DNA of 64,000 nt from Eggerthella sp. YY7918 (GTDB lineage: Bacteria > Actinomycetota > Coriobacteriia > Coriobacteriales > Eggerthellaceae), in assembly GCF_000270285.1 (NCBI RefSeq), contig NC_015738.1:2790001-2854000 (forward strand). Reading direction: 5' to 3'. Made by a program: the position numbers and the translations under genes. The notes under the pieces were generated by a model, which saw nothing but the letters and a program-made list of their open reading frames with translations, made no database searches and had not been told where the DNA came from. Shown here piece by piece: positions 1,010 through 15,406 of this stretch. Each line of letters begins with the position of its first letter. Position 1 is the stretch's first letter.

Positions 1010-1080
1010 CGTCATCAAGTGGTATGATGAATTACACGCGTGCCTCGTCGCAGCGCAGGTGCGTCCCGAAAGGAGAATTG

Positions 1081-2295
1081 TTGTTCGGCCCTGCATTGGT
1101 GATTGCCCTTGCGCTTATTGTACCTTTCGCCATGGCGGCATTTCGCTTTGCGTATGCGCTGGGCGACAGGGACGGTCATTGGCGCACATCTTCCATTCTA
1201 TTTGGCAGCACGCTCGCCCTCTGTCTTTTGGCTTTCCTCGTAGGAGTAATGCCTCTCATCGGCTTGTTTGCAGGTGTGTGGCTATCGGCATTTATCTCGT
1301 TTGGATTGCTCAATCGGTGCACACGGCGCTCCCTCCTTATCGGAAACACGATGGCGCTTTGTTTCGTGCTGCCAAGCAGCCTAGTGCTTTTCGGGCATCT
1401 CAGCTTGCTGGAAGCGAGAGGAATTGAACCCGATTATTTCACAGGATCCGCAGATCAACTGGCCGTTGTGCAGTTGCTCGCCGCCGCGTCCCTTCTGATA
1501 GGCTGCGTGTTTATCCTTGTACTGGCACGCACGCTGGGAGGCACTTATCCAGCAACCGAACAGGCTGATCGCGCTTTGCGACAATTCCATATGTTTGCAG
1601 CTTTTGGCATGATTTACGAGTTATTGGATCTTGTGCCGCTTTCCCTCAACACCAAGTTTCCCTTTATGCCATACTTTTTATTTGGCGGGTCGGTGCTCCT
1701 CCTGCTGTTCTTCGCGGTGTTTACCCTGTCCACCACCTATCTTGGCGCGGAAGCATTTCGGGAATCGGAAAATATCGACCTTGAGCGACGTCGGCGCGAT
1801 GAGATGGTGCGCATGAAGCTCTACCAACACGAAGCCACCATAGACCCCCTCACCAACCTGAACGTTCGGCGCGTCGGCCGCGAACACCTTTCACGACTGG
1901 ATAAAACCAGAATGCCTTATCTGATGGCATTCCTCGACGTGAACGGCCTGAAGGATATCAATGATGCCTTCGGCCATGCCGTAGGTGACGAATGCCTCAA
2001 AGCGTTCGCGCTGGCTCTGGCGAAAACATTTCCTGATGATCATGTGATTCGGTGGGGCGGCGACGAGTTTGTAGTGCTCACAGAATCCGACGACATCGAC
2101 GCGTTTGAGGCGAACCTTGACGCACTCGATGCCCAGTTCGACACACCTGAAGGTACGCACCCCGTTCGGTTCTGCTACGGCATAGCCTCTTCTGCCTTAG
2201 GCGACTCAGATACCATCCTGCGCCACGCCGACGAAGCCATGTATTGCAGAAAACAGGCAGGTCGCACGCCAGCATGCGGAGGCGAGGTGCAATGA
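1081..2295 (+). CDS. Membrane GGDEF protein, probable diguanylate cyclase (copy A1)
   Basis: Probably makes c-di-GMP from two GTP at the inner face of the membrane. The 404-residue product has several hydrophobic helices in its first 240 residues, a linker with GAEAFRESENI, then a GGDEF domain with DVNGLKDINDAFGH and an intact GGDEF active-site motif. No RxxD inhibitory site precedes the motif. I start it at the TTG at 1081: AAAGGAG lies just upstream, and the N-terminus (FGPAL) then lines up with the second copy (HQPAL, start 3646). An ATG at 1024 is open in frame but has no ribosome binding site. Its TGA overlaps the next gene's ATG. Confidence 0.85.
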   Translation: MFGPALVIALALIVPFAMAAFRFAYALGDRDGHWRTSSILFGSTLALCLLAFLVGVMPLIGLFAGVWLSAFISFGLLNRCTRRSLLIGNTMALCFVLPSSLVLFGHLSLLEARGIEPDYFTGSADQLAVVQLLAAASLLIGCVFILVLARTLGGTYPATEQADRALRQFHMFAAFGMIYELLDLVPLSLNTKFPFMPYFLFGGSVLLLLFFAVFTLSTTYLGAEAFRESENIDLERRRRDEMVRMKLYQHEATIDPLTNLNVRRVGREHLSRLDKTRMPYLMAFLDVNGLKDINDAFGHAVGDECLKAFALALAKTFPDDHVIRWGGDEFVVLTESDDIDAFEANLDALDAQFDTPEGTHPVRFCYGIASSALGDSDTILRHADEAMYCRKQAGRTPACGGEVQ

Positions 2296-3506
2296 GCCCC
2301 CTGTTCTACCTCATAACAACCATCCTTACGCTGGTCATGTATGTGTTATATAACGCCCTCTTTTTCGATCTGGTTTTAAAGGTGCTCGCCGTTCGCCCTG
2401 CACGCTGGAAAACGCATGTGGCTGCCTGCATTGCGAACTTCACAGCCTTCTTTTTTCTCAGCGCTACGGAATTGCCGCTGGCATTCAACTGGACGTTTAT
2501 CGCTCTCTTGTTTGCGCTTGAGATCAAAGTAATCTATCGGGTGCGTTGGACCGATTGCGTGTTCGGCGCACTCATTGGCGCTACTATCGGTCTCGCGGGA
2601 ACGCTCATTGCACGCTCAACCTGCGCGTTGATGCTCAACATCCCCCTCTCTGAGGTCAACAACGATGTTTCGAGCATAAAGGCAATACCTGTTGCGGCGG
2701 GCTTTCTGTTGGCCGCGATCACCATGCGCGGTGTCAATACACCGCGCAACCAGCGCATTCTGGAGACGATTCGCGGCGAACAGCGCGTCGTTCGCTTCCT
2801 GCTAGTGGAAATATCGCTGTGCTATCTGTATTTGTGCTTGAATTTGTTGTTGTACTACAGCGATCTTAATTCCCTGGTCATTAAGCTATGGAGCTTGAAA
2901 ACCGCGCTGTTTGTTTCCTTGGGCATCGTGCTCTCGCTATGGTTTGCCTACCGCACCGCATCGGTGTTTGGCCAAGCACGTCGTCGCAGCATGTTGGCAC
3001 GCGAAATTGAGCGCGATCAGAAGACGAACCTCCAGCTGAAGGAATTGGCCGAACACGATGAACTGACCGGATGCTTCACGCGCAGCTACGCGAAACGCAA
3101 GCTCGACGAGCTGTTGCAAGAGGGAGCTGCCGCTGCCGTTGTGTTTGCCGATGTGGACAAGCTCAAGATGGTGAATGACCGATTCGGCCACAAGGCGGGT
3201 GACGTGTATCTTGCAGCAACCGCAAACGCGCTCGACCAGGCGCGCGCTTCAACCCGCGACTTTGTAGCGCGCTATGGCGGCGACGAGTTTTTGGTCGTGC
3301 TCACCGGACCACTGCCAACAGCCCACGTGGCCGAGCGCATGAGCGTTGCGACGCGCAGCCTACGCGCAAGCGGCCGTGACGAAGATCTACCTTACGAACC
3401 CAGCATAAGTTGGGGTCTTGCCCTTCCTCAAGAAGGCGAAAACGCCGAGTCGGTCATAGCGCGTGCTGACAAGGAGATGTATCGCACTAAACACACCTCT
3501 TGCTAG
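2292..3506 (+). CDS. Membrane GGDEF protein, probable diguanylate cyclase (copy B1)
   Basis: This is the second member of the gene pair, starting inside the stop of the first (ATGA), so the two are translationally coupled and may form a complex. The 404-residue protein has about seven hydrophobic segments in residues 1-240, a short linker (REIERDQKTNLQLKELAEHD) and a GGDEF domain with DVDKLKMVNDRFGH and the motif ARYGGDEF. The canonical RxxD feedback site is absent. The membrane part differs from copy A1, so the pair may combine two sensor types. It matches the interrupted gene at 4932 closely, including seven residues between TG and AERM after the active site. Confidence 0.85.
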   Translation: MSPLFYLITTILTLVMYVLYNALFFDLVLKVLAVRPARWKTHVAACIANFTAFFFLSATELPLAFNWTFIALLFALEIKVIYRVRWTDCVFGALIGATIGLAGTLIARSTCALMLNIPLSEVNNDVSSIKAIPVAAGFLLAAITMRGVNTPRNQRILETIRGEQRVVRFLLVEISLCYLYLCLNLLLYYSDLNSLVIKLWSLKTALFVSLGIVLSLWFAYRTASVFGQARRRSMLAREIERDQKTNLQLKELAEHDELTGCFTRSYAKRKLDELLQEGAAAAVVFADVDKLKMVNDRFGHKAGDVYLAATANALDQARASTRDFVARYGGDEFLVVLTGPLPTAHVAERMSVATRSLRASGRDEDLPYEPSISWGLALPQEGENAESVIARADKEMYRTKHTSC

Positions 3507-3541
3507 CGCCTTTCTCAGGTCCCCGCGTGATAAAATGAGCC

Positions 3542-3613
3542 GTACTTCGTTTGCTCAACGAAGTACACTTTGAGCAGCACCTGAGCAATTCGCTACCCTG
3601 TGCAAGCGAATTG
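3542..3613 (+). promoter_or_regulatory. Structured leader before the second GGDEF pair
   Basis: The 139-base gap between copies B1 and A2 can form two hairpins. One has a perfect 10-bp stem (3542-3551 with 3557-3566, five-base loop). The other has an 8-bp stem (3586-3593 with 3606-3613). The sequence does not match the c-di-GMP-I riboswitch core. It could be a terminator/attenuator or an unrecognised leader. Confidence 0.35.
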
Positions 3614-3645
3614 TTGCTGGAGCACATGCTGAGGAAGGAGACGCT

Positions 3646-4935
3646 GTGCATCAACCAGCCTTATGGCTCGCTTTCGCACTGGCACTGGTGTTTGCCGCAG
3701 CGTCTGTGCGTTTTGCACGCACGATAAGCGGTGCTCGACACGCACTTCTTTCGTTTCTGGCGTTTGCGGCGCTCATGATAGCTTCGGTTGCGCTGTTCTA
3801 TTTCGCTTCACTGCATCTGATTACGTTCTATATCATGGTTTTGGCTTCGTCCCTGTTAGCCATCGGACTCCTTGGCGGGCCCAGCATGCGTTCAATCATG
3901 GCAGCCAGCATCGTGGCGCTGTGCTTCATGCTTGCTAACGGGCTTCTGTGCTACGGTTATCTCAACATTATTGGATACGCCGAAGCAAGCACCTACGCCG
4001 CTGCTGCCTCGGGAGGTTTCTCCAACGAAACGCAAGGAGCCAACCGTTTGCTTTTAATCTCGGCAGCTCAGGGCCTTGCTGCTCTTTCGGTGTGGGGGCA
4101 GGGGCGCATTCTGGGCAAGGCGTTTCCTGCGTCGAAGCGTGCTGACCGCGCGCTGCGCCCTTTCTTTGCGTTTACCTGCTTCGCCATTGCCTATACGGTA
4201 CTTGACACCATTCCGTTTGCACTCAACACCTGGTTCGAAGACATGCCCCTCTTTCTGTTTGGAGGCACGGCGCTGCTTGCCGTGTTTTGCGTCGTATTCT
4301 CGGCGGTCACTTCAAGTTTGGGCGCCGAAGCCTTCCGTGAATCCGAAAATATCGTGCTTGAACGCAAGCGTACGGAGCAGGAATCACGCCTGCGCCTGAC
4401 GCGCCTGCAGGCAACCACCGACACACTTACCGGGCTGGCAACGCGTCGTGTAGGACAAAAGCGCCTTGAAGAACTTGACGTGCAGAGAACTGGCTACACG
4501 GTGGCGTTTATCGATTTGAACGGGCTCAAAAACGTGAACGATCACTATGGGCACGCCGCGGGCGATGCCTACCTCGTATCGTTTGCTCGCGCACTTGAGA
4601 ACGCATTGCCGCATCGGCTGATCGTGCGCTGGGGCGGCGACGAATTTCTTGCCATCGCGGAGGACACACCCAGCGAAACTGCCACGCAAAAGCTCAGCGA
4701 CGAACTGGCCTCGGTGCAGGCATCCGCCCGCGTGGGAAATACTGAGATGCCCGTACGATTCTGCTATGGATTGGCCTCGTGGGATCCCGGCTCGTCGGCC
4801 GGTACCGTCCTGCGTCGCGCCGATGATGCCATGTACGCTGCCAAACGTACCGCTCTAAAAGAAAACGCCTGCGGATATGCTGCCGGCCTTTCCGCCGTGT
4901 GTGGACGCTCGCCGCTCGAAGGAGGCTCGCTATGA
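3646..4935 (+). CDS. Membrane GGDEF protein, probable diguanylate cyclase (copy A2)
   Basis: Paralogue of the gene at 1081. The 429-residue product has an N-terminal block of hydrophobic helices, the shared linker GAEAFRESENIVLERKR, then a GGDEF domain with DLNGLKNVNDHYGHAAGD and WGGDEF. It starts at a GTG preceded by GGAAGGAG at good spacing. The C-terminus (about 25 residues after MYAAKR) is longer than in A1. Its TGA overlaps the ATG of the following gene, repeating the A1/B1 architecture, so the four genes are a tandem duplication of a two-gene unit. With B2 broken, A2 has lost its partner. Confidence 0.85.
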   Translation: MHQPALWLAFALALVFAAASVRFARTISGARHALLSFLAFAALMIASVALFYFASLHLITFYIMVLASSLLAIGLLGGPSMRSIMAASIVALCFMLANGLLCYGYLNIIGYAEASTYAAAASGGFSNETQGANRLLLISAAQGLAALSVWGQGRILGKAFPASKRADRALRPFFAFTCFAIAYTVLDTIPFALNTWFEDMPLFLFGGTALLAVFCVVFSAVTSSLGAEAFRESENIVLERKRTEQESRLRLTRLQATTDTLTGLATRRVGQKRLEELDVQRTGYTVAFIDLNGLKNVNDHYGHAAGDAYLVSFARALENALPHRLIVRWGGDEFLAIAEDTPSETATQKLSDELASVQASARVGNTEMPVRFCYGLASWDPGSSAGTVLRRADDAMYAAKRTALKENACGYAAGLSAVCGRSPLEGGSL

Positions 4936-5950
4936 ACGACCTCCTTTCCGTGCTGGCCTTTTTTGGTTCGCTTATACCCTATTTTCTGTATAACGCTTCG
5001 GTGTTTGTGTTTGCGAATCACGTGCTTGGGTGGCGGCCCGCGCGTTGGAAAATCTACGGCGCAACCTGTATCGTCAACTATGCTGTGTTCATTGTTTTAG
5101 GGCAGATCGCCACACCGCTGCCCATCAACTGGAGCATCGTAGCACTGCTGTTTTTCGCCGAGATCCGGCTCTTGTATCGCGCAGAATGGATCGACTGCGC
5201 TCAACTGTCCCTGATCAGCGGGATGCTTGGTCTTACGGGCACCATTGTTATGCGGTCTACCTGCGCTTTTATATTCGACATTCCGCTTTCGGCGTTCAGC
5301 AACGACATTGGCAACGCGAAGATGCTTCCCGTATCATTGGGATTTTTGCTGGCCGCGCTCAGCACACGCGGCGTCGATATCGCGCGCAACCGCCGCTTTT
5401 TCGCCACCATCCGCGCCGAGAAACGCGCGAATCGGTTTCTGCTGTTGGAGTTTTTGCTGTGCTACGGCTACCTATGCACGAACCTGCTGCTGTATTACGA
5501 CGACATGAACTCAGTCGTCACCAAGCTCTGGAGTTTGAAAACCGCGCTGTTCGTGTCGCTGGGCGCAGTGCTGGCCATCGGATTTGCCTATCATTCCGCC
5601 TCGACACTGGCTCAGGCTGAACGACGCAATACCCTGGCACGCGACATCGCGCGCACTGAGCTTGAGCGCGAACAGCTGCGCGAATTAGCCGATCGCGATC
5701 CCTTAACGGGCAGTTGCACACGCGGATATGCCGAACGCGCAGCCGCCGATTTGCTCGCACGCCAAGAACACCTGTGGCTGGCCTTTGTCGATCTGGACGG
5801 ACTCAAAATGGTGAACGACCTTTTTGGGCATGCAGAGGGCGACAGTTTTATCGCGTCGGCGGCCAGCGCCCTTGAGGGAGCGCGCGCGCATACCGACGAT
5901 TTCGTGGCGCGCTATGGCGGCGACGAATTTGTGGTTGTAATGACCGGAAA
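4932..5950 (+). pseudogene. 5' part of an interrupted membrane GGDEF gene (copy B2)
   Basis: This is the paralogue of copy B1, with the same membrane domain and the motif ARYGGDEFVVVMTG at its end. Immediately after TG the frame runs into foreign AT-rich DNA and stops at 5952-5954, giving 340 residues that lack the last third of the GGDEF domain. The missing 3' part lies at 10512-10719 in the same orientation. Joining the halves at codon AAC restores 407 codons and the same seven-residue spacing to AERM as in B1, so the host gene was intact before a clean insertion. The truncated product keeps the membrane part and active-site motif but probably cannot fold or cyclise GTP. Confidence 0.93.
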
Positions 5951-5989
5951 TTAGATGCTAAAAATTTGTAATTAAGAAGGAGTGATTAC

Positions 5990-6727
5990 ATGAACAAAAA
6001 TATAAAATATTCTCAAAACTTTTTAACGAGTGAAAAAGTACTCAACCAAATAATAAAACAATTGAATTTAAAAGAAACCGATACCGTTTACGAAATTGGA
6101 ACAGGTAAAGGGCATTTAACGACGAAACTGGCTAAAATAAGTAAACAGGTAACGTCTATTGAATTAGACAGTCATCTATTCAACTTATCGTCAGAAAAAT
6201 TAAAACTGAATACTCGTGTCACTTTAATTCACCAAGATATTCTACAGTTTCAATTCCCTAACAAACAGAGGTATAAAATTGTTGGGAGTATTCCTTACCA
6301 TTTAAGCACACAAATTATTAAAAAAGTGGTTTTTGAAAGCCATGCGTCTGACATCTATCTGATTGTTGAAGAAGGATTCTACAAGCGTACCTTGGATATT
6401 CACCGAACACTAGGGTTGCTCTTGCACACTCAAGTCTCGATTCAGCAATTGCTTAAGCTGCCAGCGGAATGCTTTCATCCTAAACCAAAAGTAAACAGTG
6501 TCTTAATAAAACTTACCCGCCATACCACAGATGTTCCAGATAAATATTGGAAGCTATATACGTACTTTGTTTCAAAATGGGTCAATCGAGAATATCGTCA
6601 ACTGTTTACTAAAAATCAGTTTCATCAAGCAATGAAACACGCCAAAGTAAACAATTTAAGTACCGTTACTTATGAGCAAGTATTGTCTATTTTTAATAGT
6701 TATCTATTATTTAACGGGAGGAAATAA
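5990..6727 (+). CDS. erm(B): 23S rRNA (adenine-N6) dimethyltransferase, macrolide-lincosamide-streptogramin B resistance
   Basis: It dimethylates A2058 of 23S rRNA and so blocks binding of macrolides, lincosamides and streptogramin B. The 245-residue product has the standard ErmB length and reads as ErmB throughout, with the SAM-binding motif [10 protein letters not shown] and the catalytic NIPY-type motif as SIPYH. GAAGGAG lies eight bases before the ATG. Only about 39 bases separate the start from the left junction, so the usual leader peptide and promoter are missing. Expression must then be constitutive and depend on transcription entering from the GGDEF genes. Codon use is AT-rich, unlike the host. 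Confidence 0.98.
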
Positions 6728-6731
6728 TTCT

Positions 6732-6863
6732 ATGAGTCGCTTTTGTAAATTTGGAAAGTTACACGTTACTAAAGGGAATGTAGATAAATTATTAGGTATA
6801 CTACTGACAGCTTCCAAGGAGCTAAAGAGGTCCCTAGCGCCTACGGGGAATTTGTATCGATAA
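6732..6863 (+). CDS. Small open frame downstream of erm(B)
   Basis: A 43-residue frame (MSRFCKFGKLHVTKGN...) starts five bases after the erm(B) stop, with GGGAGG overlapping the end of erm(B). This short frame is the usual companion of erm(B) in Inc18-type contexts. It probably derives from the broken front of the topoisomerase remnant that follows. No function is known. Confidence 0.5.
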   Translation: MSRFCKFGKLHVTKGNVDKLLGILLTASKELKRSLAPTGNLYR

Positions 6864-6899
6864 GGGGTACAAATTCCCACTAAGCGCTCGGGACCCCTT
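6824..6899. repeat. Long imperfect inverted repeat between erm(B) and the topoisomerase remnant
   Basis: Two arms of about 34 bases (6824-6858 and 6866-6899) around a seven-base loop pair with few mismatches; the inner part is GGGAATTTGTA against TACAAATTCCC. It sits where the small frame ends and the topoisomerase remnant begins, so it may mark an old insertion joint or act as a transcription terminator for erm(B). Confidence 0.6.
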
Positions 6900-7151
6900 G
6901 TAGGAAAATGTCCTAAGTGTGGCAACAATATTGTATTAAAAAAATCGTTTTATGGTTGTTCAAATTATCCTGAATGTACCTTCACTTTAGCTGAACATTT
7001 TAGAAAGAAAAAACTCACCAAAACAAATGTAAAAGAATTACTAGAGGGAAAAGAAACCCTGGTAAAAGGAATCAAAACGAAAGATAGAAAGTCCTACAAT
7101 GCCGTTGTAAAAATCGGAGAAAAGGGATATATTGATTTTATCTATGTATGA
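6882..7151 (+). pseudogene. C-terminal remnant of a plasmid type I topoisomerase
   Basis: The frame reads VGKCPKCGNNIVLKKSFYGC SNYPEC (a CxxC...C...C zinc ribbon) and runs to a TGA at 7149-7151. This is the C-terminal zinc-finger tail of a topoisomerase I/III-like protein such as the gamma product of Inc18 plasmids. No start codon or catalytic tyrosine domain remains. Topoisomerase next to omega-epsilon-zeta is the plasmid order, so the remnant records the source of the block. Confidence 0.75.
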
Positions 7152-7209
7152 GAACGTATTTTTTGAAATGCTTGAGCGAATCATTCAATTAGAAAACGAA
7201 AAAGAATAG
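7144..7209 (+). CDS. Tiny open frame before omega
   Basis: A 21-residue frame (MYENVFFEMLERIIQLENEKE) overlaps the end of the topoisomerase remnant and stops one base before the omega operator. It has no clear ribosome binding site and no recognised domain. It may be chance coding within plasmid DNA. Confidence 0.25.
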   Translation: MYENVFFEMLERIIQLENEKE

Positions 7210-7272
7210 AATCACAAATCACAAGTGATTAATCACAAATCACTTGTGATTTGTGATTGTTGATGATAAAAT
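7210..7272 (+). promoter_or_regulatory. Omega promoter with seven operator heptads
   Basis: Seven uninterrupted heptads of the form WATCACW fill 7210-7258, in the orientation two forward, one reverse, two forward, two reverse, as described for the omega promoter of pSM19035. TTGTGA at 7244-7249 and TAAAAT at 7267-7272, 17 bases apart, make the promoter, with the -35 box inside the heptads so that omega represses its own synthesis. Confidence 0.88.
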
Positions 7273-7300
7273 AAGAGTAAGAAGAAATAGAAAGAAGTGA

Positions 7301-7516
7301 GTGGTTGTGGGAAATTTAGGCGCACAAAAAGCAAAACGAAATGATACACCAATCAGTGCAAAAAAAGATATTATGGGGGATAAGACGGTTCGTGTTCGTG
7401 CTGACTTGCACCATATTATAAAAATCGAAACAGCAAAGAATGGCGGAAACGTAAAAGAAGTTATGGATAAAGCCTTAGAAGAATATATTCGGAAATATTT
7501 ACCTGACAAACTTTAA
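7301..7516 (+). CDS. Omega transcriptional repressor
   Basis: A 71-residue ribbon-helix-helix protein of the omega family from Inc18 plasmids, recognised over its full length (GNLGAQKAKRNDTPISAKKD, then DKTVRVRADLHH, the DNA-contacting strand). As a dimer it binds WATCACW heptads, seven of which lie directly upstream, and in plasmids it controls copy number, partition and the toxin-antitoxin genes. It starts at GTG 7301 with AGAAAG upstream. It is intact and first in the omega-epsilon-zeta operon, 16 bases before epsilon. With the toxin broken it probably only regulates itself and genes read through from it. Confidence 0.93.
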   Translation: MVVGNLGAQKAKRNDTPISAKKDIMGDKTVRVRADLHHIIKIETAKNGGNVKEVMDKALEEYIRKYLPDKL

Positions 7517-7532
7517 AAGGAGTGAAAATGAA

Positions 7533-7805
7533 ATGGCAGTTACTTATGAAAAAACATTTGAAATAGAGATCATTAACGAATTATCGGCAAGCGTTTATAA
7601 TCGAGTATTAAACTATGTTTTGAATCATGAATTAAATAAAAATGACTCTCAATTATTGGAAGTCAATTTATTAAACCAATTAAAGCTTGCAAAACGTGTA
7701 AATCTTTTTGATTATTCTTTAGAAGAATTACAAGCCGTTCATGAGTATTGGCGGTCAATGAATCGCTATTCAAAACAAGTTTTGAATAAAGAGAAAGTGG
7801 CTTAA
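7533..7805 (+). CDS. Epsilon antitoxin
   Basis: The 90-residue all-helical antitoxin of the epsilon/zeta system: it binds the zeta kinase and blocks its nucleotide pocket. The sequence [20 protein letters not shown] matches the family from its first residue, and AAAGGAG precedes the ATG. It lies one base before the zeta gene, as in intact systems. Here the toxin has lost its kinase core, so epsilon has no active target in this insert. Confidence 0.92.
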
Positions 7806-7806
7806 T

Positions 7807-8673
7807 ATGGCAAATATAGTCAATTTTACTGACAAACAATTTGAAAATCGCTTAAATGATAATTTAGAAGAATTGGTTCAAGGAAAAAAAGCGGTTGAAT
7901 CGCCAACCGCTTTTTTACTTGGTGGGCAACCAGGGTCAGGGAAAACGAGTTTGCGATCAGCAATTCTTGAAGAAACACAAGGGAATGTTATTGTCATTGA
8001 TAAAGAGGGGTTAAAAGCTGCTGGTGAATGGCATCAATTAAAACCTTTGTTTCCTTCGTTAGAAGGAAAATCTGTTCTTGACTTGGGGTGCGGATATGGC
8101 TGGCACTGCAAGTTCGCAGAAGAACAAGGAGCTACAAAAATATTAGGGATCGATTTAAGTAAGAAAATGATTGAGGAAGCCCAAAAGCGCAATTCAGGAA
8201 ATCAAATTGAATATCGTATTAGCGGATTAGAGGAATATGACTATCCAGAAAATGAATGGGATTGTGTTATATCTAATTTAGCTCTGCACTATATAGAGGA
8301 CATAGTGGAAATATTTCAAAAAGTGTATAGGACATTAAAACCAGGTGGAATTTTTCTTTTTAATATCGAACACCCTGTTTTTACCGCAGGAGTTGGGCAG
8401 GATTGGATTTATACAGATGATGGGAAACCGCAATATTGGGCGATTGATAATTACTTTATAACAGGAGAACGAAATACACATTTTTTAGGATGTGATGTAG
8501 TAAAACAACATCACACACTTACACAGATTATAATGGGATTGCTGAACAATGGGTTTGAGCTTAAAGTTGTAGAGGAAGCAGAACCGCCTAAAGAGATGAT
8601 GGATATTCCGGGTATGGAAGATGAACTTCGCCGCCCGATGATGTTACTTGTAAAGGCGATAGCGAAAAAATAA
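7807..8673 (+). CDS. Chimera: zeta toxin N-terminus fused to a SAM-dependent methyltransferase
   Basis: Residues 1-65 are zeta toxin ([19 protein letters not shown] through the P-loop GQPGSGKT to VIVID). At about 8001 the frame passes without a break into a class I methyltransferase with [12 protein letters not shown] (SAM site) and LALHY, ending at residue 288. The rest of zeta (substrate pocket and catalytic residues) is absent, so toxicity should be lost. The same join occurs in resistance clusters where a methyltransferase precedes ant(6)-Ia. Expression would use omega-operon signals. Whether the methyltransferase is functional with the extra domain is unknown. Confidence 0.88.
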
Positions 8674-8675
8674 TA

Positions 8676-8909
8676 TCTCTATTAGGAAAACTGATATACC
8701 CCAATTTAGAGAATGGCATAGTAATTCCTAGTGATAAAGAGAAAATGATTGCACTGGCAAATAAATACATTGAAAAAGAAAATGTAGATGCACTCATTCT
8801 CGCCTGTACGGAGCTGCCACTTGCCATAAAGCCCGAAGATGTTAATGTGCCAATCGTGAATACAACCCAAGTACATATCAATGCAATTTACCAATATGCA
8901 ATTCGATAA
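8676..8909 (+). pseudogene. C-terminal remnant of an aspartate/glutamate racemase
   Basis: From just after the methyltransferase stop, a frame without a start codon reads IALANKYIEKENVDALILAC then TELPLAIKPEDVNVPIVNTT and stops at 8907-8909. LACTELPL is the second catalytic-cysteine motif of the Asp/Glu racemase family. About two thirds of the gene are missing. The remnant travels between the methyltransferase and ant(6)-Ia in Gram-positive resistance clusters. Confidence 0.8.
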
Positions 8910-8913
8910 AAAT

Positions 8914-8996
8914 AGCAAAGCCAGCCGAGCCAGTCAACGGTCAAGATGAACGGCGCATTTCATGCGCCGCCGTTGACAGCCCCGCCCGTCTTTGCT
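8914..8996. repeat. Multi-arm dyad before ant(6)-Ia
   Basis: Three nested dyads share one centre: AGCAAAG/CTTTGCT (8914-8920, 8990-8996), GTCAACGG/CCGTTGAC (8933-8940, 8970-8977) and CGGCGCAT/ATGCGCCG (8951-8958, 8962-8969). The GC-rich block is unlike the AT-rich flanks. It could terminate transcription from the omega operon or be a relic of a recombination or replication site. Confidence 0.6.
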
Positions 8997-9065
8997 AAAG
9001 GGTAATCAAGGCGGGAAAGCCCTAAAATGGCTTCACACCTATTTCAATAATTGGAGGAGATAAAA

Positions 9066-9932
9066 ATGAGATCAGAAAAGGAAGTTTATGATATTGTTTT
9101 GAATTTTGCAAAAACAGACAAACGCATTCGCATGGTTACTTTGGAAGGATCTAGAACAAATACAAATATTCCGCCTGATGATTTTCAGGATTTTGATATT
9201 ACTTTTTTTGTTACGGATATGGACAGCTTCACAAGTGATGATAAATGGCTAGATATATTTGGTGAAAGGTTGATTCTGCAAAAGCCGGAAGATATGGAAT
9301 TATTTCCAGCTGTAGAAAAGGGATTTTCATATTTAATGCTGTTTACTGATGATGTTAAGATAGATTTAACTTTGCTGCCGCTGGAACTGATAGACGAGTA
9401 TTTTACATGGGATAAACTGGTAAAGTTACTGTTGGATAAAGACAACCGTATCGTAAAGCCGCCAATACCAACGGATATAGACTACCACTTGCAGAAGCCT
9501 ACTCAAAGAATGTTTGACGATTGCTGTAATGAATTTTGGAATACTACAACATATGTAGTAAAGGGCTTATGCCGCAAAGAAATTCTTTTTGCTATTGACC
9601 ATATGAATGATATAGTACGAAAAGAATTGCTTCGCATGATTTCCTGGCTGATTGGTATCAAACAGGGATTTCATTTCAGTTTGGGAAAAAACTATAAATT
9701 TATGAAGCAATATGTCCCAGAGGAATTGTGGGAACGACTTATGTCCACTTATAATATGGATTCCTATCCCCATATGTGGGAATCCTTTGAACAATGTATG
9801 GCATTGTTCCGGGAGGTTTCGTCAGAAGTGGCATGCCAGTTGGATTACCAGTATCCACTATATGATGAAAAAATCAGTAATTATGTGATTCGGCAAAAGA
9901 AAAAATATGGCATTGAAGATGATAACAAATAA
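9066..9932 (+). CDS. ant(6)-Ia: Aminoglycoside 6-nucleotidyltransferase, streptomycin resistance
   Basis: This enzyme adenylylates streptomycin at position 6 using ATP. The 288-residue product reads as the ANT(6)-Ia/AadE family throughout: VTLEGSRTNTN, the metal-binding DFDITFFV, and VKIDLTLLPLELI. The ATG at 9066 follows GGAGGAG; an upstream TTG would only include the ribosome binding site. In many Gram-positive clusters ant(6)-Ia is followed by sat4 and aphA-3, which are absent here. Base composition is strongly AT-rich compared with the host. Confidence 0.96.
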   Translation: MRSEKEVYDIVLNFAKTDKRIRMVTLEGSRTNTNIPPDDFQDFDITFFVTDMDSFTSDDKWLDIFGERLILQKPEDMELFPAVEKGFSYLMLFTDDVKIDLTLLPLELIDEYFTWDKLVKLLLDKDNRIVKPPIPTDIDYHLQKPTQRMFDDCCNEFWNTTTYVVKGLCRKEILFAIDHMNDIVRKELLRMISWLIGIKQGFHFSLGKNYKFMKQYVPEELWERLMSTYNMDSYPHMWESFEQCMALFREVSSEVACQLDYQYPLYDEKISNYVIRQKKKYGIEDDNK

Positions 9933-9955
9933 AATTTTTTCAATCGAAAAAATTT
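9932..9955 (+). terminator. AT-only hairpin after ant(6)-Ia
   Basis: A perfect 10-bp stem (9932-9941 with 9946-9955, loop AATC) begins at the last base of the ant(6)-Ia stop codon and is followed by TATTTT. It is AU-rich and so a weak but plausible terminator. Confidence 0.5.
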
Positions 9956-9989
9956 ATTTTGATTATTCAATTTTGAAAAACTGAATACC

Positions 9990-10511
9990 TCAAAATCAGA
10001 AAGAGCGCGGACAAGCACTTTGAGGGATTGGCCGCCTTGTCCACCCATCCAGCGGGGCGGCGGGCGGCGGTCAAGGCCGGGTGTAACCCCGTTCATTTCA
10101 GCCTTGACGGTTGCCCGCTGTCCTGCTACTTTTCCGGGAGTGTGGCCACAACTTCGGGACACTTTGTCCACAAGTCGGAGCGTAGGACGAGGGACGGGGG
10201 CTTTCATATACCTGCCGCCGTTCTCTGAAAACAGGCCGATTTTTTGCTCATTCCCATTCGCAAAAATTCAGCCTGTTTTCCTGCCGGAGCAAACGGGGCG
10301 CAAGAAGCACCGCACCCCGTTTCCCCCGTCAGCCACGCCAGCAGGTATAACACACTACACTTTGCAAGCAAAGTCGTGTGCCAAAGGGGGCACCCCTTTG
10401 GAAACCCCGGACAACAAAACAGGCGGTATGCTGCCCTCTCCGGGAGCATACCGCCGTTTGTTGTCAGCAGCCCGTTTCACGGTCTGCGTGTAGTTCCTTG
10501 TAAACTGACCT
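9990..10511. other. Non-coding, GC-rich hairpin-rich tail of the insert
   Basis: After about 60 AT-rich bases the composition switches abruptly to GC-rich. I see no convincing gene: frames up to 157 codons lack ribosome binding sites and recognisable motifs. It holds a CCAAAGGGG/CCCCTTTGG hairpin (10381-10401) and a larger dyad at 10412-10463 with an 11-bp core. The texture is that of intergenic or transfer-origin DNA of Clostridia-type integrative elements, which is an inference. It ends at the right junction with the GGDEF gene. Confidence 0.5.
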
Positions 10512-10719
10512 AAACCTCAGCCTAGAAAACGCAGCCGAGCGCATGGAGGTGTCGCTGCGCACGCTGCGCGAAACCGGCACCGAGAACAACCTGCCTTACG
10601 AACCCTCTATGAGCTGGGGGCTTGCGCAGGCTGAACCTGGCGATTCGCTCGACTCGCTGGTAAACCGCGCCGATGCCGCGATGTATGGCCGCAAACGCGG
10701 CAAGGCGCGCGCCAGCTAA
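10512..10719 (+). pseudogene. 3' part of the interrupted GGDEF gene (copy B2)
   Basis: The frame NLSLENAAERMEVSLRTLRE, then YEPSMSWGLA and VNRADAAMYGRKRGKARAS, is the C-terminal third of the GGDEF domain. It matches copy B1 (AERMSVATRSLRASG...YEPSISWGLA...ARADKEMY). It has no start codon or ribosome binding site and lies in line with the fragment ending at 5950. The two together make one gene of 407 codons. Confidence 0.93.
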
Positions 10720-12475: not shown

Positions 12476-15406
12476 CTATCTGTCGATTTCGATGCGATCG
12501 ACCAAAACGGCTGCGAGCGCTGATCGGTCCAAATCACACCCAAGGCCATGAGCATGCCCTTCGCGATTGAGTGTGACAAACCCCCGCTCAGCTGTGTAGG
12601 GAGGGGTCGTGATGTCGCACGAGAAATAACGCGACGTGGCCCCAATGTCGCCAGGAGCATTGACGTTGGGCAATGCTTCGAATGCAGCGTGGGCCAACTT
12701 CGAGATGCCGGTGTCGTACATGCCGCCCATCCACACGTCGATTCCTCGCGCCTGAGCCATACGCGCGAATTCAACAGAAGGCTGAATTCCCCCCAGCTTG
12801 CCAATCTTGAGAGCGTAACAGCGAAGCTCAGGGTGCGAAAGCGCCCGGGCCATATCGAAGGGCCGGGCAATCGATTCATCAAGACAGATAGGCGTGCGCA
12901 TGGTGTGCTGAAGACGTGCGAGGCGAACGAAGATATCGGTGGACGATCCGGCCGGCACACGACGCGGATCGAGCGGCTCTTCGATCCAGGCCGCGCCGAA
13001 GCTGTCAAGTTCGCGCAGCTCTTCCACATCGCGTTCAGTAAAACTCTGGTTCGCATCAAGCGTTAGCATGACCTGGGGCAAAGCGGCCCGCACGGCACGA
13101 ACGCGCGCGGCACTTCCCGGCGCAATTTTAAGTTTGATGCGAGAATACCCTGCTGCCGCGCAACGGCGCGCCGCAGCCACCGTCTCGCTCACCGAGCCAT
13201 CGCTTATCACAGCACCGGCAGGAACGGCGATATCGCCGCAAGACGACGAAGTCAAAGCCGCTTTTTTAACACCCACGAGAGATCCCGACTCTTGGGGCGC
13301 GCCGGATGTTTGCCTCCTCATTCCCGCATACGCTTCTCCAACAAGCTGCCATAACGGCTTTTCGACTATCTTGCCATAAAGGTCCCACAAGGCCGGCTCA
13401 AGCGCTCCACACGCCATGGGGTATGCTTCTGCACGAGTGTCGGAGGCAAACGCAAGGCTTACTTCACGGGGATGAAGGAACGTTTCGTGCAAGACCAAGG
13501 GAGCCAAAACATCGTGCAAGATGCGCGTATCTTGACCGAGCGTTTCCGGCAAATACCAGTCCGTCGGAAACGATACGCACTCCCCTAAACCCGTTCTGCC
13601 TTCGTGATCAGTCACTTCAACAATGATGGACTCGCGCTGCGTCAACGTTCCCTTCGCGGTTTTAAAGGGATTGATAAACGGAAGACGTATGTGATACAGC
13701 GTGACGCGCGCTACTTCGATGCGCTCGCCATACTGCCGCTCAAGCTCGCTGCGATTGATTTTCCCCACGCCGCTGCGGGGGAACTCGTCAAGCACATATA
13801 CCTGCTTAGGCAGGTACAACTTCGAAAGTTGGGGCCTCAGATGTGCTTGCACCGATGCCGAAAAGGCGCGATTTCCCGCGGTTATCGAAGCGGTGTCATA
13901 CACGGGAGCGCGACCTGCCAAAGCGCCGGTCTTTGAAGGTTCAAGCGTCTGGGTTTCGCGCTCCACAAAGGCGACCGGCCGACGACCCCATCGTTCGTCA
14001 ACCGCGCCGAACACATGCGCATCTTTCACGCCGGGTATGCGCAGAATTTTCTCGCGTATTTCGGCCGGATAGACGTTCTCGCCACCGGAAACAAACATGT
14101 CATCGGTGCGCTCTTTCACATACAGCAACCCGCCGTAAAGCGCGGCAGTGTCCCCTGTCAGAAAATAGCCATCCACCGTGTAGGCGGCCTGCGCGTTCAG
14201 GTACCCCTTAAACAAGCCCGGTCCCTTCACCGCCAGGCGGCCGAACCCGTCCGCACCAGGATCGACAATATGAGCCTTATAGCTTGGAAGAAGTCGCAAC
14301 CCCCCTTGGAACGTCGAGGTAACCTGCGCATGAGCAATCAGGCTTGCTGTTTCTGTCATGCCATAACTTGAAAACACGCGAAGGCGCAGCGCGCGAACAC
14401 GATCAAGCGTGCTTGGATTCGTCGCGCCGCCTCCCAGCAGGATGCAGCCATAGCGAAGCAGCGATTCCGTACGCCCCGTTGCCAGCATATCCTGCAGCAT
14501 CTTGTCGACAACGGATATATGCGTTGCCCCCTTGCGATGTCCGTCTGCCAGAACCCGCTCCGCGTCGAAACGGTGGTAGAGCACAAAGGGACAGCAGTTC
14601 AGAAGGCTGCGAACGATAACCTGGAATCCTCCGACATGATAGAGCGGCAAGGCGGCTTGCCATAATCCTTCTCCGTGGCGACTGAGAGACGAATTGAACA
14701 CTTCTGCCGACCGGCACACATTATCCCATGTAAGCGGCACCGCTTTTGCGCGCCCCGTCGTGCCCGAAGTAAACATGACCACGGCACGGGCATCGCGGTC
14801 AAATATGTGGGCCGCATGCTCGGCAAAGTGGATGACAGCCTCAACGGCGTCTTGACGTGCTATCTCGCTGCGACGGCGCATGGCGGCACGTCCCGAAGGC
14901 GCGCGACCGAGAGCTTTTGTCGTGCGTGGTTCGGCACCCACCATACCCGCCCGGCCGGTAAAGGTAGGGCGTGCGGTACGCATTTGGGTGCGCCCACGTG
15001 GATACGATGCCGACTCGCCCGAGAGCAGAGCCATTGCCTTGTCAATCAAACGTTCTGCCCAGACTTTGTCGATGCGCGTCGTGATGGGCGAGCCAACAAC
15101 CCGCTCGAGCTCCATCAGACGAGCAAGCTTTTCTCCCTCCGTCAGACGATTATTGAGCGCCACCAACGAAAACCCGCCATAGGCAGCAGCTAGGATAAGA
15201 AACACGTACGCCGGGCAGTTCGGTAAGTCAACAGCCACGTGATCGTCCGGGCCAACCCCCCGATCACGCAAGCTTCGGGCGATTGCAGCAGACAGAAGGC
15301 GCATCTCGCGATACGAGTACGTCACCTCAGATCCGTCTTCGTCAACATAGGTAAAACACGTGCGATCAGGGCACCGGCGCACCATGCTTTCAAACATGCT
15401 GATCAT
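12476..15406 (-). CDS. menE-menC: Fused O-succinylbenzoate-CoA ligase and O-succinylbenzoate synthase
   Basis: One uninterrupted 976-residue frame encodes two sequential menaquinone enzymes. Residues 1-560 are MenE: the AMP-binding loop MFTSGTTGRAKAVP (about 211-224), SSYGMTETA, YFLTGDTA and the catalytic lysine region GVGKINRSE (about 546-554). Residues 562-976 are MenC of the enolase superfamily: RIKLK (lysines about 758 and 760), LDAN (D784), IEEP, LDES and the lysine of KIGKLGG. MenE carries an arginine-rich insertion at about 132-188 and MenC one at about 692-726. MenC acts before MenE, so the order in the chain is reversed relative to the pathway. The ATG at 15406 has a poor ribosome binding site; it follows menB by 85 bases. 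Confidence 0.9.
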   Translation of the reverse strand: MISMFESMVRRCPDRTCFTYVDEDGSEVTYSYREMRLLSAAIARSLRDRGVGPDDHVAVDLPNCPAYVFLILAAAYGGFSLVALNNRLTEGEKLARLMELERVVGSPITTRIDKVWAERLIDKAMALLSGESASYPRGRTQMRTARPTFTGRAGMVGAEPRTTKALGRAPSGRAAMRRRSEIARQDAVEAVIHFAEHAAHIFDRDARAVVMFTSGTTGRAKAVPLTWDNVCRSAEVFNSSLSRHGEGLWQAALPLYHVGGFQVIVRSLLNCCPFVLYHRFDAERVLADGHRKGATHISVVDKMLQDMLATGRTESLLRYGCILLGGGATNPSTLDRVRALRLRVFSSYGMTETASLIAHAQVTSTFQGGLRLLPSYKAHIVDPGADGFGRLAVKGPGLFKGYLNAQAAYTVDGYFLTGDTAALYGGLLYVKERTDDMFVSGGENVYPAEIREKILRIPGVKDAHVFGAVDERWGRRPVAFVERETQTLEPSKTGALAGRAPVYDTASITAGNRAFSASVQAHLRPQLSKLYLPKQVYVLDEFPRSGVGKINRSELERQYGERIEVARVTLYHIRLPFINPFKTAKGTLTQRESIIVEVTDHEGRTGLGECVSFPTDWYLPETLGQDTRILHDVLAPLVLHETFLHPREVSLAFASDTRAEAYPMACGALEPALWDLYGKIVEKPLWQLVGEAYAGMRRQTSGAPQESGSLVGVKKAALTSSSCGDIAVPAGAVISDGSVSETVAAARRCAAAGYSRIKLKIAPGSAARVRAVRAALPQVMLTLDANQSFTERDVEELRELDSFGAAWIEEPLDPRRVPAGSSTDIFVRLARLQHTMRTPICLDESIARPFDMARALSHPELRCYALKIGKLGGIQPSVEFARMAQARGIDVWMGGMYDTGISKLAHAAFEALPNVNAPGDIGATSRYFSCDITTPPYTAERGFVTLNREGHAHGLGCDLDRSALAAVLVDRIEIDR

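Follow-up and report, generated by a model that had tools for sequence, protein, structure and literature searches.

A resistance insert in a diguanylate cyclase gene of Eggerthella sp. YY7918 pairs one serine-recombinase element end with a target-like left edge

How do two antibiotic resistance genes come to lie inside a chromosomal gene of a gut member of the Actinomycetota with no recognisable mobile-element gene nearby? The window analysed here, a 64,000-nucleotide stretch of the Eggerthella sp. YY7918 chromosome (NC_015738.1, positions 2,790,001 to 2,854,000), contains a diguanylate cyclase gene split by a 4.56-kb insert that carries erm(B) and ant(6). On the reading that we favour, to which we assign a probability of about 0.55, the insert is a resistance cassette without a promoter, left stranded by a family of integrative and mobilizable elements (IMEs) with a large serine recombinase. 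It would be a case of resistance genes from an Enterococcus-type plasmid reaching the chromosomes of gut Actinomycetota, and such cassettes are overlooked when annotation searches for transposases. The broken gene and the edges of the insert are laid out as follows, in window coordinates.

4932..5950, + strand: diguanylate cyclase gene, left part, 339 codons plus the AA of the cut codon (open reading frames, Pfam, alignment)
5948..5950, no strand: left joint, AAA, with a core AA common to the host and the erm(B) 5' flank (sequence comparison)
5951..10511, + strand: the insert, 4.56 kb (sequence, limits of homology)
5948..5970, + strand: target-like half-site (AA-N10-AAA) at the cassette's left edge, lying in the 5' DNA of erm(B) immediately past the promoter of the donor (target scoring, donor comparison)
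10410..10466, no strand: predicted subterminal hairpin (GACAACAAA...TTTGTTGTC), read from the sequence and not folded
10488..10511, + strand: right arm of the attachment site (attP) of the element family (GTGTAGTTCCTTGTAAACTGACCT), repeating the family left end in inverted orientation (pattern scans)
10512..10514, no strand: right joint, AAA, with core AA (sequence comparison)
10515..10719, + strand: diguanylate cyclase gene, right part (sequence, Pfam, alignment)

The insertion itself is clean. The left half of the cyclase gene reads in frame from 4932 to ...ATG ACC GGA AA (5950), with the cut falling in codon 340, and host DNA resumes at 10515; as AAA stands both at 5948-5950 and at 10512-10514, the exact position of the joint is ambiguous by three bases. 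The two halves (1019 and 205 bases) add up to 408 codons including the stop, which bears out the 407 codons given for the rejoined gene in the initial annotation, together with its coordinates for the halves and the insert and its observation of AAA at both junctions. The halves were aligned apart, never as a joined sequence. Residues 1-338 of the left half align without gaps to residues 1-338 of the paralogue at 2292, and residue 5 of the right half (residue 345 by count) pairs with residue 345 of the same paralogue. Against the gene of a relative (genome G004), the offset of 167 is constant over both halves (337 to 504 and 347 to 514). One register for both halves in two intact homologues means that no codon was lost or gained in either comparison, so that the earlier claim of an insertion without loss of host bases stands; in this relative the two parts form one intact gene rather than separate genes. 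The two resistances reported previously were likewise recovered, with Erm(B) at 565.7 bits (cut-off 525) and ANT(6) at 456.2 bits (cut-off 420).

What the earlier description lacked is what moved the insert and the nature of its edges. In four unrelated contexts, homology at the right edge breaks off at identical bases (10512-10514), and the right-end pattern was found in at least 118 genome contigs and 7 viral contigs, mostly with differing flanks; 125 of 129 right-end rows continue with TAA. Of 20 larger regions, 12 also showed the family left end AGTACAGTTTACAAGGGACTACAC, which repeats the right end in inverted orientation and lies 6.2 to 9.7 kb from it; the end-to-end size is 7619 bp in five of these 12. 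In L148, a member on a viral contig, the left end adjoins a gene for a 503-aa protein that has Resolvase, Recombinase and zinc-ribbon domains; a Mob_Pre relaxase and a RepA_N protein come next. With a recombinase and a relaxase between two ends 7.6 kb apart, this member is an IME by its sequence. The closest solved structure to its recombinase is the TP901-1 integrase, and a recombinase/resolvase gene of the same length (1512 bp) is annotated in two plasmid records. Family records are mostly gut Clostridia by record title. The family is described here from sequence at more than 100 sites, and no paper in the open-access literature could be matched to it, judged mainly from listings.

Target choice in this family is broad and centred on AA. 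Right flanks (124 distinct 30-mers) follow T-AA-N10-AAA-n-A and left flanks (n = 19) follow TTT-N10-AA, after which the element begins with AG; taken together, they describe a target symmetric about an AA core, TTT-N10-AA-N10-AAA. The target matrix was built from 125 distinct 24-mers, after dropping L029 (a duplicate of L016) and two cassette copies (L083 and L129). Some contigs have a common flank (e.g. L057 and L115), and L167, which has the last 57 bases only, was left out with similar short matches in L079, L110, L136 and L047 as probably another element type. The 125 distinct right flanks point to many unrelated targets for one recombinase group, as in multi-targeting recombinases. In the cassette, 10488-10514 is identical to the family right end (an attR-type end is kept), and AAA is found at both edges of the donor DNA as well, in the erm(B) 5' flank and at the IME right end, which identifies it as the shared core of a recombination site. 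We are highly confident of the insertion chemistry and of the identity of the right end.

Several observations on the family stand beside these results. The start of what by eye resembles an IS200-type tnpA gene is a recurrent target, cut at the same codon in L017, L020, L040, L041, L123 and L166. The hairpin and the tnpA-like right flanks had suggested an end of IS200/IS605 type; this was excluded by the left end with its serine recombinase, tnpA being a recurrent target. Hairpins of different sequence occupy the same place in the viral-contig copies. In L148 (1672-12854), the 7.6-kb element interrupts a 1211-aa frame that by eye resembles a tail tape-measure gene, and phages may carry family elements. 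On a Campylobacter jejuni plasmid (L016 at 6425, and L029), a partial tet(O) follows immediately after the family right end. The tandem-like appearance of L165 is an internal duplication, not two element ends.

The same cassette occurs at a second site. Across 138 genomes of the host's taxonomic family (its own included), the whole insert was found in 2 and pieces in 3 more. The Enteroscipio rubneri ResAG-96 records G001 and G448 are taken as one assembly and the Gordonibacter sp. An230 records G516 and G439 as one (matching coordinates). In E. rubneri, a sister species placed in the same genus in this collection, the cassette has the same first and last base but lies at another AA in a different gene, encoding a thioesterase. 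Three bases of the window copy are deleted in it; two of these fall within erm(B), whose reading frame is broken in this species. The thioesterase gene continues on a different contig, where its other half adjoins one end of a repeat resembling an insertion sequence (IS); the right joint of the cassette meets the opposite repeat end, and both repeat ends bear the 8 bases CCTAAAGA (an 8-bp duplication). From these sequences the host reading appears continuous with homologues, with nothing lost, allowing for one inserted repeat. We infer that the two repeat ends belong to one IS, which appears to have arrived later than the cassette. Nine end copies of this repeat were found (L168 10506-10638, L218), seven of which lie against a contig end, as judged from coordinates or locus lengths. 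An insertion with loss of host DNA was considered for E. rubneri and set aside, the right flank being one of the nine repeat copies and the other half of the gene lying on the other contig. In Gordonibacter sp. An230, a copy of 8184-10514 at 100% identity shares the right end and has a strong left host half-site; its left joint differs and is not clearly target-like (fraction 0.2465). Genome G515 (L174), which has the genus code of this Gordonibacter, matches window positions 8050-8495 at 100% identity at position 126-571 of a contig.

At its left edge, the cassette has erm(B) 5' DNA in place of the family left end TACAGTTTACAAGGGACTACAC, so that no attL-type end is present. Scored as a target half-site, the left joint reaches 10.1, compared with a median of 6.4 for true targets, and exceeds all 657 AA sites inside the insert. 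Taken as a right half, the erm(B) half-site ranks 1 of 1496 and 4 of 2321 among AA sites in two donor plasmid stretches. Copies with a right end only and varied left joints recur (L152-L154, L156, L157, L159, L042, L073, L115). Eleven distinct left joints of such copies could be scored, namely those at which the match to the reference element or cassette stopped within the available DNA, copies cut by a contig or locus end being unscored. Three of these (this joint, L156 and L159) are target-like with fractions of at most 0.0154, and the chance of three in 11 at that level is about 0.0005 (hand calculation). The left ends of L156 and L159, from two genera, lie seven bases apart in the same element stretch.

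Identical ends at two loci, an AA core, a family right end and a target-like left end together fit a history of serine recombination better than chance deletion. In the route that we propose, a family element would have inserted at the target-like site upstream of erm(B), within a larger element ending in the present right end. This vehicle would then have paired its own left end with the right end of the cassette, and the composite would have landed in each host gene. Later precise excision of the vehicle, by recombination of the host/left-end junction with the junction of its own right end and erm(B), would have left host-AA-erm(B)...right end-AA-host. Each step would use canonical pairings. 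Another family element docking at the left joint could remove the cassette again and restore the host gene. For this exact sequence of nested insertion, composite movement and precise vehicle excision, we judge the odds to be about even.

A number of results weigh against the proposed history. When both halves are scored as a whole site, the erm(B) site falls to rank 73 of 1496 and 136 of 2321, its left half being poor (-5.7), and against a more permissive null (any position, five shifts) the fraction for the erm(B) joint is 0.008. The other eight of the 11 left joints are not target-like (fractions of at least 0.2155), which implies that ordinary deletion also makes right-end-only copies. Host half-sites are weak in E. 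rubneri, where the left half outscores 0.877 of host AA sites and the right half 0.642. The cyclase site fits the family target partly, since 98.4% of AA sites in the host DNA of the window score below its right half and 83.1% below its left half, and the latter value (0.831) counts among the unfavourable ones. The predicted intermediate, in which erm(B) is joined at this base to a family right end, was searched for as an exact pattern and found in none of the viral contigs, in 0 of 167 loci and in 0 of 398 genomes of the phylum of genome G437. Nested insertion was not seen either, as none of the retrieved right flanks gave a match to any of seven family elements. The window genome has no copy of the family recombinase, the best match showing 35% identity over query residues 11-232. 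Lastly, passages of a study of multi-targeting recombinases report that one of them, Cp36, which was not compared in sequence with the family, did not recombine attL with attR (PMC10083194); excision may accordingly need another factor.

Part of this evidence would suit mobility in trans in one step, whereby a family recombinase from outside pairs the true right end with erm(B) upstream sequence as a surrogate left end, forms a circle and inserts it at AA. Such a process explains identical ends at two loci without the tandem intermediate, none of which was seen, and it makes use of the right half of the erm(B) site alone, which is where that site is strong. However, the left edge resembles a target (attB) half rather than the family left arm AGTACAGTTTACAAGGGACTACAC, and serine integrases specific for attP and attB are not expected to accept a pairing of an attB half with a right end. 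A recombinase acting in trans would also have to come from elsewhere, the window genome having no gene for one of this family. We regard this explanation as unlikely, albeit the most serious of the alternatives.

Decidedly less probable is that a complete element inserted at AA and that an ordinary deletion at the short repeat AAA later removed its left part up to erm(B). AAA is indeed present at the joint and in the donor, and the eight left joints that are not target-like indicate that such deletions occur in the family. Here, however, the deletion would need to end precisely at the edge of the host DNA and, in two genes of two species, at an identical inner base, and its inner end would fall among the best target-like half-sites of the donor region. 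Movement of the cassette by a transposase with a 3-bp target duplication is very improbable. AAA at both joints, in the window and also in E. rubneri, would agree with it, but AAA belongs to both donor edges as well, the ends of the insert are not inverted repeats by eye, and the right end is that of a serine-recombinase family with an AA core; we rejected this candidate on the donor edges and on the absence of a transposase among the insert frames. An assembly artefact, for which no supporting evidence was found, can be dismissed almost entirely, as the window genome is a single contig, the same cassette stands in an independent assembly of another species and the cyclase frame and length are kept.

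Returning to the cassette itself, its contents divide into a plasmid-type left part and an IME-derived right part, as listed below.

5990..6727, + strand: erm(B), intact, the leaderless allele as in pAMbeta1, with its own promoter and leader peptide absent (gene model score, sequence comparison)
6898..7151, + strand: type IA topoisomerase gene, 3' fragment, limits approximate (blastn to L011, annotation)
7301..7516, + strand: omega transcriptional repressor (Pfam PF07764, open reading frame)
7533..7805, + strand: epsilon antitoxin (Pfam PF08998)
7807..8673, + strand: first part of the zeta toxin fused in frame to an S-adenosylmethionine methyltransferase (Pfam, homology)
8909..10511, + strand: IME-derived right part with ant(6) as cargo (homology)
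9051..9932, + strand: ant(6)/aadE, aminoglycoside 6-adenylyltransferase (NCBIfam NF033084, above cut-off)

Positions 5948-8006 are Enterococcus-type DNA comprising erm(B), the topoisomerase fragment, omega, epsilon and the start of zeta, with the ParA gene of the plasmids absent. The plasmid-type DNA ends at about 8006, within the zeta-methyltransferase fusion, whose 288 aa form a single open frame. The sequence between about 8909 and the right end is partly common to Campylobacter, Subdoligranulum, Lactobacillus and Blautia records, and in many other family members the equivalent of 8913-9060 joins 9966-10514 directly, with no ant(6) between. Among 12 frames of at least 80 aa starting in the insert, Pfam detected no recombinase, transposase or relaxase; an origin of transfer was not searched for. 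Judged by these frames, the insert itself is not an IME. No IS copies lie at the ends of the insert, the flanks being host gene with no transposase among the insert frames. No further cassette copy was found in the window genome besides the insert and two short self-matches inside it.

The second edge feature absent from the initial annotation is that erm(B) lacks its own promoter. The allele gives a one-piece 100% match in four of 15 listed plasmid rows, from a total of 1268 matching records, and the pAMbeta1 DNA upstream of AAATTAG, including the TATAAT box, is absent at the joint. No promoter-like match was found on the + strand between 5700 and erm(B) among the matches listed, such scans being weak. 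The cut cyclase frame terminates at a TAG directly on the joint, followed by the erm(B) ribosome site, and the same TAG ends the cut thioesterase frame in E. rubneri. Upstream lie three intact genes for GGDEF membrane proteins.

1024..2295, + strand: GGDEF membrane-protein gene (open reading frame, Pfam GGDEF)
2292..3506, + strand: GGDEF membrane-protein gene (open reading frame, Pfam GGDEF)
3646..4935, + strand: GGDEF membrane-protein gene, directly upstream of the broken cyclase gene (open reading frame, Pfam GGDEF)

These genes (1024..4935) and the broken cyclase gene overlap or lie close together on the same strand, and judging from this spacing they likely form one operon reading into the insert. 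Expression of erm(B) from the host operon is plausible on these grounds, and under the proposed route erm(B) would be transcribed in this way. The gene is sense-oriented to the host gene in both the cyclase and the thioesterase, which is what selection would give, although two cases prove nothing. The cyclase itself has probably lost its function, as the last third of its GGDEF domain is severed: the left half covers profile positions 1-89 and the right half 98-158. In its own genome, the protein of the left half gives 18 matches, itself included, and other GGDEF proteins therefore remain.

On a wider reading, which we put forward tentatively and with less conviction than the history of this cassette, serine-recombinase IMEs would have a class of one-ended satellites, in which cargo is bounded by a true element end on one side and by a target half-site on the other. 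Any family element docking at that half-site could then act as a vehicle, with the cargo moving to a new gene, the old gene becoming whole again and the vehicle excising. As the docking site lies below the lost promoter, resistance would be expressed only with co-directional host transcription, and each landing would amount to a promoter capture. The right-end sequence, the AA core and the TTT/AAA arms provide a testable rule for finding stranded cassettes and host scars.

Elsewhere in the window, a 976-aa frame on the - strand (12476-15406) joins an o-succinylbenzoate-CoA ligase (MenE, below the curated cut-off) and an o-succinylbenzoate synthase (MenC, above the cut-off), that is, two steps of menaquinone synthesis in one protein.

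Among known systems, the family resembles IME_Rho_tet, which its description presents as a serine-recombinase IME of gut Bacillota with terminal inverted repeats and partial copies in Actinomycetota (PMC12904643). The two differ, as far as they were compared, in that IME_Rho_tet, according to that description, ends 81–90 bp past the recombinase stop and carries a tet gene and mobC (PMC12904643), whereas the L148 element ends about 55 bp past its recombinase stop and has a Mob_Pre relaxase; the 21-bp terminal repeat of IME_Rho_tet is published as a figure. Among the L148 frames of at least 120 aa, no tet gene was noticed, no search with a tet model having been made; five of these frames were scanned, one being a major facilitator superfamily transporter. 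Many unrelated targets, an AA core and AT-rich arms are shared with the multi-targeting large serine recombinases, whose cores are AA or TT in the parts of the study consulted (PMC10083194). DUF4368, common but not universal in that group by the same partial account, was not found in a Pfam scan of the L148 recombinase; family and group are compared here by description. The left part of the insert resembles the pAMbeta1-type erm(B)-omega-epsilon-zeta region (NC_013514), with a leaderless erm(B) and the same gene order except for ParA, which is missing in the window. It differs from that region in the missing erm(B) promoter and in zeta, which is truncated and continues into a methyltransferase.

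Elements without a recombinase are also known among the staphylococcal cassette chromosome (SCC) elements, where pseudo-SCC elements are moved in composite islands by Ccr serine recombinases; SCC uses one specific chromosomal site. The cassette is alike in having no recombinase, and CcrB was a distant match, below its cut-off. The originals on cis-mobilizable elements (CIMEs) and accretion are reportedly Pavlovic 2004 and Bellanger 2011. A CIME, as described in a review, is a decayed element without integration or transfer genes that is carried off by a related element integrating alongside it, a process termed accretion (PMC5704250). The cassette has neither recombinase nor relaxase, and carriage by a related element, of which the two occupied sites are suggestive, is what we propose for it. 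A CIME, however, keeps both attL and attR, whereas the cassette has only the right element end and, at its left, a target half-site in cargo DNA; because one att end is lacking, it falls outside the definition of a CIME. By working principle, the closest known kind is the CIME moved by accretion.

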